From Candidatus Nitrosopumilus sp. (GTDB taxonomy: Archaea; Thermoproteota; Nitrososphaeria; Nitrososphaerales; Nitrosopumilaceae), in NCBI GenBank assembly GCA_013911135.1, contig JACERO010000079.1, positions 1-64,000 on the forward strand: DNA of 64,000 nt, in the 5' to 3' direction. The position numbers and the translations under genes are program-made. This document shows, piece by piece, positions 30,402 through 30,493 of this stretch. The notes under the pieces were generated by a model that was not told where the DNA came from, searched no databases, and saw nothing but the letters and a program-made list of their open reading frames with translations. The first letter of the stretch is position 1; each line of letters begins with the position of its first letter.

Positions 30402-30493
30402 GGGCTTGTGGCGCAGAGTCATTTGACGCGAAACATGGATAGCGTGGTACTCTCCTAAGGTACAGGTCGAGGGATCGAAGCCCTCCAAGCCCG
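30402..30493 (+). tRNA. tRNA-Arg(CCT) with ~18-nt insertion in D-loop
   Basis: GGGCTTG/CAAGCCC acceptor, GTACT-CTCCTAA-GGTAC anticodon arm, GAGGG-ATCGAAG-CCCTC T arm, D-stem GCGC/GCGT enclosing an oversized loop. Confidence 0.85.

Follow-up and report, generated by a model that had tools for sequence, protein, structure and literature searches.

A Putative Non-Canonical Intron of 17 Nucleotides in the D-Loop of tRNA-Arg(CCU) from a Candidatus Nitrosopumilus Genome

The window, a 64,000-nt stretch of DNA from Candidatus Nitrosopumilus sp., carries a tRNA-Arg(CCT) gene at positions 30402-30493 (+ strand) in which every arm is intact and the D-loop is enlarged. The gene comprises the acceptor stem GGGCTTG/CAAGCCC, the D-stem GCGC/GCGT, the anticodon loop CTCCTAA, a 5-nt variable loop (AGGTC), the T-loop ATCGAAG, and the discriminator base G73; the CCA end is not gene-encoded. 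An original prediction, made from the letters of the window, had correctly located this gene, its normal arms, and its D-loop insertion, which it put at 18-20 nt. The insertion stands, but its length does not, as the insert spans 17 nt (30417-30433) and the CAT at 30434-30436 is exon. Because this CAT is retained in the mature D-loop of intronless orthologs, the 20 nt originally counted are three too many. The elements of the gene, all on the + strand, are as follows.

30402-30416 (+): 5' exon of tRNA-Arg(CCT), positions 1-15, GGGCTTGTGGCGCAG, read from the sequence; intronless orthologs share the exon end GCGCAG.
30411-30414 (+): GCGC, positions 10-13, of which C11-C13 would pair with the intron GCG at 30428-30430 in the precursor and all four with positions 22-25 in the mature D-stem; pairing at 11, 12, and 13 in 81 of 81 variants, with a compensatory C13-G to T-A change in locus L073.
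30415-30417 (+): 5' bulge A-G^A, three bases between two conserved helices, with the predicted 5' splice site (30416/30417) placed by intronless orthologs.
30417-30433 (+): putative intron AGTCATTTGACGCGAAA, 17 nt, separating positions 15 and 16; exact gap relative to the syntenic intronless locus L335 and to intronless orthologs of other genera and families.
30418-30420 (+): 5' strand of the intron inner helix, GTC, pairing with GAC at 30425-30427 in 81 of 81 variants; double changes at all three pairs.
30425-30427 (+): 3' strand of the intron inner helix, GAC, partner of GTC at 30418-30420.
30428-30430 (+): 3' strand of the central helix, GCG, within the intron; partner of C11-G12-C13.
30431-30434 (+): 3' splice region AAA^C, with the predicted 3' splice site (30433/30434) placed by intronless orthologs; no conserved outer helix lies beyond it.
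30434-30493 (+): 3' exon of tRNA-Arg(CCT), position 16 to G73, from the sequence and from ARAGORN on the spliced form.

On the intact gene ARAGORN, run in default mode, makes no call, and after deletion of the 17 nt it reports a tRNA-Arg(cct) of 75 nt. Rfam, applied to the window at its gathering score, does not call the gene either; with a loose threshold, RF00005 matches the intact gene at 23.8 bits (30423-30488; cut-off 29), compared with 55-57 bits for five intronless orthologs. The recurrence of the full-length, insert-bearing gene across the genus rules out chance, and since the same insert is found in many separate assemblies it is not a sequencing error, an explanation that the original prediction had asked to be checked. 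The same genome encodes tRNA-Arg genes with the anticodons TCT, GCG, and TCG; a second intact tRNA-Arg(CCT) was also sought, as the original prediction had proposed, and none was found in this assembly, which is 98.6% complete.

The limits of the insert are set by genes that lack it. In genome G087, a member of the same genus, the syntenic tRNA-Arg(CCT) gene (L335) is missing exactly AGTCATTTGACGCGAAA (window 30417-30433), and both of its flanks match the window, the T-run that precedes the tRNA and the last part of the upstream reading frame among them. Genera g7 and g9 and the outgroup families f2, f10, f14, and f15 have intronless orthologs that read GCGCAG/YATGG across the junction, and genus g13 has GCGCAG/CTTGG; the empty sites, the same-genus one included, read GCGCAGCATGG. 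The tRNA-Arg(TCT) gene of the genome itself carries the same D-arm uninterrupted, reading CGCAGCATGGATAGCG. These assignments are based on fetched sequence and not on pattern matches alone. Apparent intronless matches in G028, G046, and G299 were rejected, as the match there starts at the intron's own GCGCAG, and L293 was excluded from the intron-bearing set as a false parse. Together, the intronless orthologs and the same-genus empty site place an intron of 17 nt between positions 15 and 16; alignment with tRNA-Arg(CCT) of relatives, a check suggested at the outset, thus fixes both the site and the length.

The insert and its 5' flank share a conserved pairing pattern. Six pairs form in each of 81 distinct precursor variants, three between C11-G12-C13 and GCG of the insert and three between GTC and GAC within it. 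Position 13 is C, except for T13 in L073, and the partner of 11-13 is a triplet near the intron 3' end, usually GCG; the inner helix joins intron bases 2-4 to the three bases preceding this GCG-type triplet in all 81 variants. Compensatory changes are seen at four of the six pairs, namely all three inner pairs (GTC/GAC, GCC/GGC, and ATC/GAT are examples) and the pair at position 13, where C13-G becomes T-A in L073. In that locus the change of C13 to T is matched by a G to A change in the intron and position 22 is still G, so the precursor helix, not the mature D-stem, accounts for it. In a set of 20 diverse sequences, 99.2% of cells are paired, the one unpaired cell being due to gap placement in the alignment, and double-change cells number 17, compared with 4.0 in shuffles that leave relatedness in, none of 500 of which reaches 17. 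The covariation score in the same set is 0.453 versus 0.170 in shuffles, which likewise retain relatedness, and pairing falls to 12-53% when the structure is slid. Taken alone, the inner helix forms 243 of 243 pairs versus 213.6 in shuffles, which again leave relatedness in, with 0 of 2000 reaching the observed value. Double changes of several kinds, spread across genera and families, would be hard to explain without pairing.

Beyond these six pairs, conservation is limited. No outer helix is conserved at the 3' splice site (NAR^Y): G7:T17a and T8:A17 are common, but 27 of 112 sequences have A-C at 9:16, and we do not claim a 7-9/16-17a helix because these bases are conserved in tRNA on other grounds. 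Only 31 of the 81 variants can form a fourth central pair, G10:N, and the window is not among them. The insert is accordingly not a strict hBHBh' element, with its 4-bp central helix, two 3-nt bulges, and outer and inner helices. The predicted fold instead resembles the relaxed HBh' form, in which the 3-nt bulge AG^A lies between the C11-C13/GCG and GTC/GAC helices and the cut, as placed by the orthologs, would follow its second base. The original prediction had paired TCAT at the insert start with ATGG at the 3' junction as a minimal central helix; this finds no support, as the conserved, covarying pairs are those given above. Folding of the window precursor, which had been recommended as a check for a bulge-helix-bulge (BHB), gives -31.3 kcal/mol for the conserved splice structure, better than the -27.8 kcal/mol of the D-stem form with the insert kept; the unconstrained fold, at -33.6 kcal/mol, has a shifted hairpin.

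The genome also encodes the enzymes that such an intron would need. Two genes carry PF01974, and their products are homologous to crenarchaeal EndA. The 178-aa protein aligns nearly end to end with the endonucleases 2cv8 and 3p1z, including conserved Tyr, His, and Lys residues, which we take to be the catalytic positions of the family. The 199-aa protein is a more divergent relative that aligns with 1a79 and lacks the histidine, presumably as expected of a structural subunit. A gene for the ligase RtcB is present as well. Two-subunit splicing endonucleases, a type linked to lenient site choice, are described for Thaumarchaeota (PMC4090602), and the heteromeric enzyme of a thaumarchaeal host that the original prediction had invoked is borne out by the two subunit genes.

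We therefore consider it very probable (roughly 0.95) that the insert is a non-canonical pre-tRNA intron of 17 nt, which separates positions 15 and 16 of the sole tRNA-Arg(CCU) gene found and is spliced out. The features of a BHB-type intron occur together here, in that removal yields a normal tRNA, a covarying helix and bulge lie at the junction, and endonuclease and ligase genes are present. The D-loop intron originally suggested is thus upheld by the exact empty site, the covarying helices, and the tRNA-Arg(cct) restored without the 17 nt. In the proposed precursor, C11-G12-C13, the future 5' strand of the D-stem, would pair with GCG near the intron 3' end and GTC/GAC would close a small hairpin within the intron, so that the 5' site would lie in an AG^A bulge and the 3' site in an NAR^Y stretch. 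The two-subunit endonuclease would cut both sites, RtcB would ligate the exons, and the released C11-C13 would refold with positions 22-24 to give a normal D-arm, GCGC AG CAT GG ATA GCGT. We infer the cuts, ligation, and refolding from conservation and enzyme content. Other intron and gene architectures were considered and rejected: a group I or II self-splicing intron is incompatible with an insert of only 17 nt and with the lack of any match to an Rfam intron family in the window, and a split or permuted tRNA with exons that are contiguous and in order.

An insert that stays in the mature molecule, enlarging the D-loop of a functional tRNA and forming a small hairpin there, would account for the conserved insert sequence and for its having a hairpin of its own. 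Orthologs and a paralog nevertheless exist without the insert, the change at C13 in L073 is compensated within the insert, and, of the three computed folds, the D-stem form has the poorest energy. Pairing with the insert, which is conserved, would take C11-C13 away from the D-stem and so makes sense in the precursor only; retention is accordingly very unlikely. Least credible of all is a pseudogene or assembly artefact, with another tRNA-Arg(CCT) doing the work, for although automatic tools make no call, the insert is present in many separate assemblies, single-contig genomes included, the tRNA body is intact, and the search of the 98.6% complete genome returned no other CCT gene.

Splicing could also use other boundaries, such that an upstream unit containing GCGCAG is excised and the mature D-arm is drawn from the intron's GCGAAACATGG. 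This would yield a mature AAACATGG, where cutting at 15/16 would yield AGCATGG. The insert end, GCGNAR, does resemble the exon GCGCAG, and in L141 and L133 the two ends are equal, so that either cut gives the same mature sequence. In the window, however, A13 would then oppose G22 and an A would stand at position 15, and the empty sites, including that of the same genus, carry GCGCAGCATGG; we regard shifted boundaries as even less probable than retention.

As judged from these gene sequences, the 15/16 intron is near-universal in the genus and also occurs in other families, with a precise absence here and there. When the DNA of 95 genus members was searched, 94 gave some match, mostly to a full-length gene; a stricter pattern found no match in ten members, all of which except G067 are less than 90% complete. 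Within family f1, an intron-bearing tRNA-Arg(CCT) is found in most sampled genera, and the named records include Nitrosopumilus, Nitrosarchaeum, Nitrosotenuis, Nitrosotalea, Cenarchaeum, and Nitrosopelagicus. Inserts of similar architecture occupy the same site in f8 (L133, L141, and L338-L340), f12 (L336), and f35 (L341). The overall tally is about 250 loci with the insert and about 29 without, drawn from overlapping collections and hence not a count of independent genomes. The tRNA-Arg(CCT) genes L336 (f12) and L341 (f35) apparently combine a 15/16 insert with a canonical 37/38 intron, and L337 (f17) has a canonical 37/38 intron only. In L141 and L133 (f8), the insert may close with exactly the same GCGCAG as the 5' exon, in which case the splice point can slide and the mature tRNA is unchanged.

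The inserts of the different families may descend from one ancient intron or from repeated gains. A local duplication of the D-stem strand is a speculative and rather unlikely origin. GCGC is self-complementary, so a GCGCAG repeat around a small hairpin would make a spliceable bulge-helix-bulge in one step. If true, the mature tRNA would always be the same, and this origin would explain both the similar 15/16 inserts in at least four families (f1, f8, f12, and f35) and the recurring precise absences, perhaps via exchange with the intronless tRNA-Arg(TCT).

Other tRNA genes of this genome are also unusual. In a tRNA-Val(CAC) gene (L030, G000:C82:2724-2815), AAGG repeats flank about 16 extra nt of the variable loop, and in a tRNA-Met(CAT) gene (L081, G000:C41:81838-81952) about 40 nt are inserted 5' of the anticodon; each is probably a further non-canonical intron. 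The gene L083 (G000:C21:162-244), with anticodon GAA, combines a long variable region with an apparent G73, unusual for tRNA-Phe. A weak RF00005 match (24.3 bits; L091, G000:C74:56900-57080) is tRNA-like with its 5' part interrupted or missing, possibly an intron-bearing tRNA-Trp.

For annotation, the consequence is a correction, as the only tRNA-Arg(CCU) gene found in this genome escapes both ARAGORN in default mode and the Rfam cut-off. The presence, exact absence, and covariation of the insert within one gene family provide a well-sampled case for the gain and loss of archaeal tRNA introns, and the 15/16 intron leaves the view of archaeal tRNA splicing unchanged. Our literature search found no text that names a 15/16 intron of tRNA-Arg(CCU). 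The portion of the tRNAscan-SE 2.0 paper considered here describes 107 non-canonical tRNA introns in Thaumarchaeota and a clade-specific model (PMC8450103); these are of the same clade and class, short and BHB-related outside 37/38, and the 15/16 intron may well be in the underlying data. Caldiarchaeum subterraneum has intron-rich tRNAs with D-, V-, and T-arm introns according to the available part of its description (PMC3293823), which shares the D-arm location and, in that part, does not name tRNA-Arg(CCU) 15/16. D-arm introns have also been studied in Aeropyrum pernix, and those of Sulfolobus tokodaii are cleaved in vitro at BHB-like sites by its own EndA (PMC4307357); the tRNA-Thr and tRNA-Glu introns of these respective organisms share the D-arm with ours but belong to other tRNAs and other archaeal orders. 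As in the relaxed HBh' and hBH forms (Marck and Grosjean 2003, per PMC4090602), a splice site lies between two short helices, here at the 5' site, whereas here no outer helix is conserved at the 3' site and the central helix often has only 3 bp. D-arm introns and thaumarchaeal non-canonical introns are thus already documented, and the 15/16 intron is a well-resolved case of a known kind.
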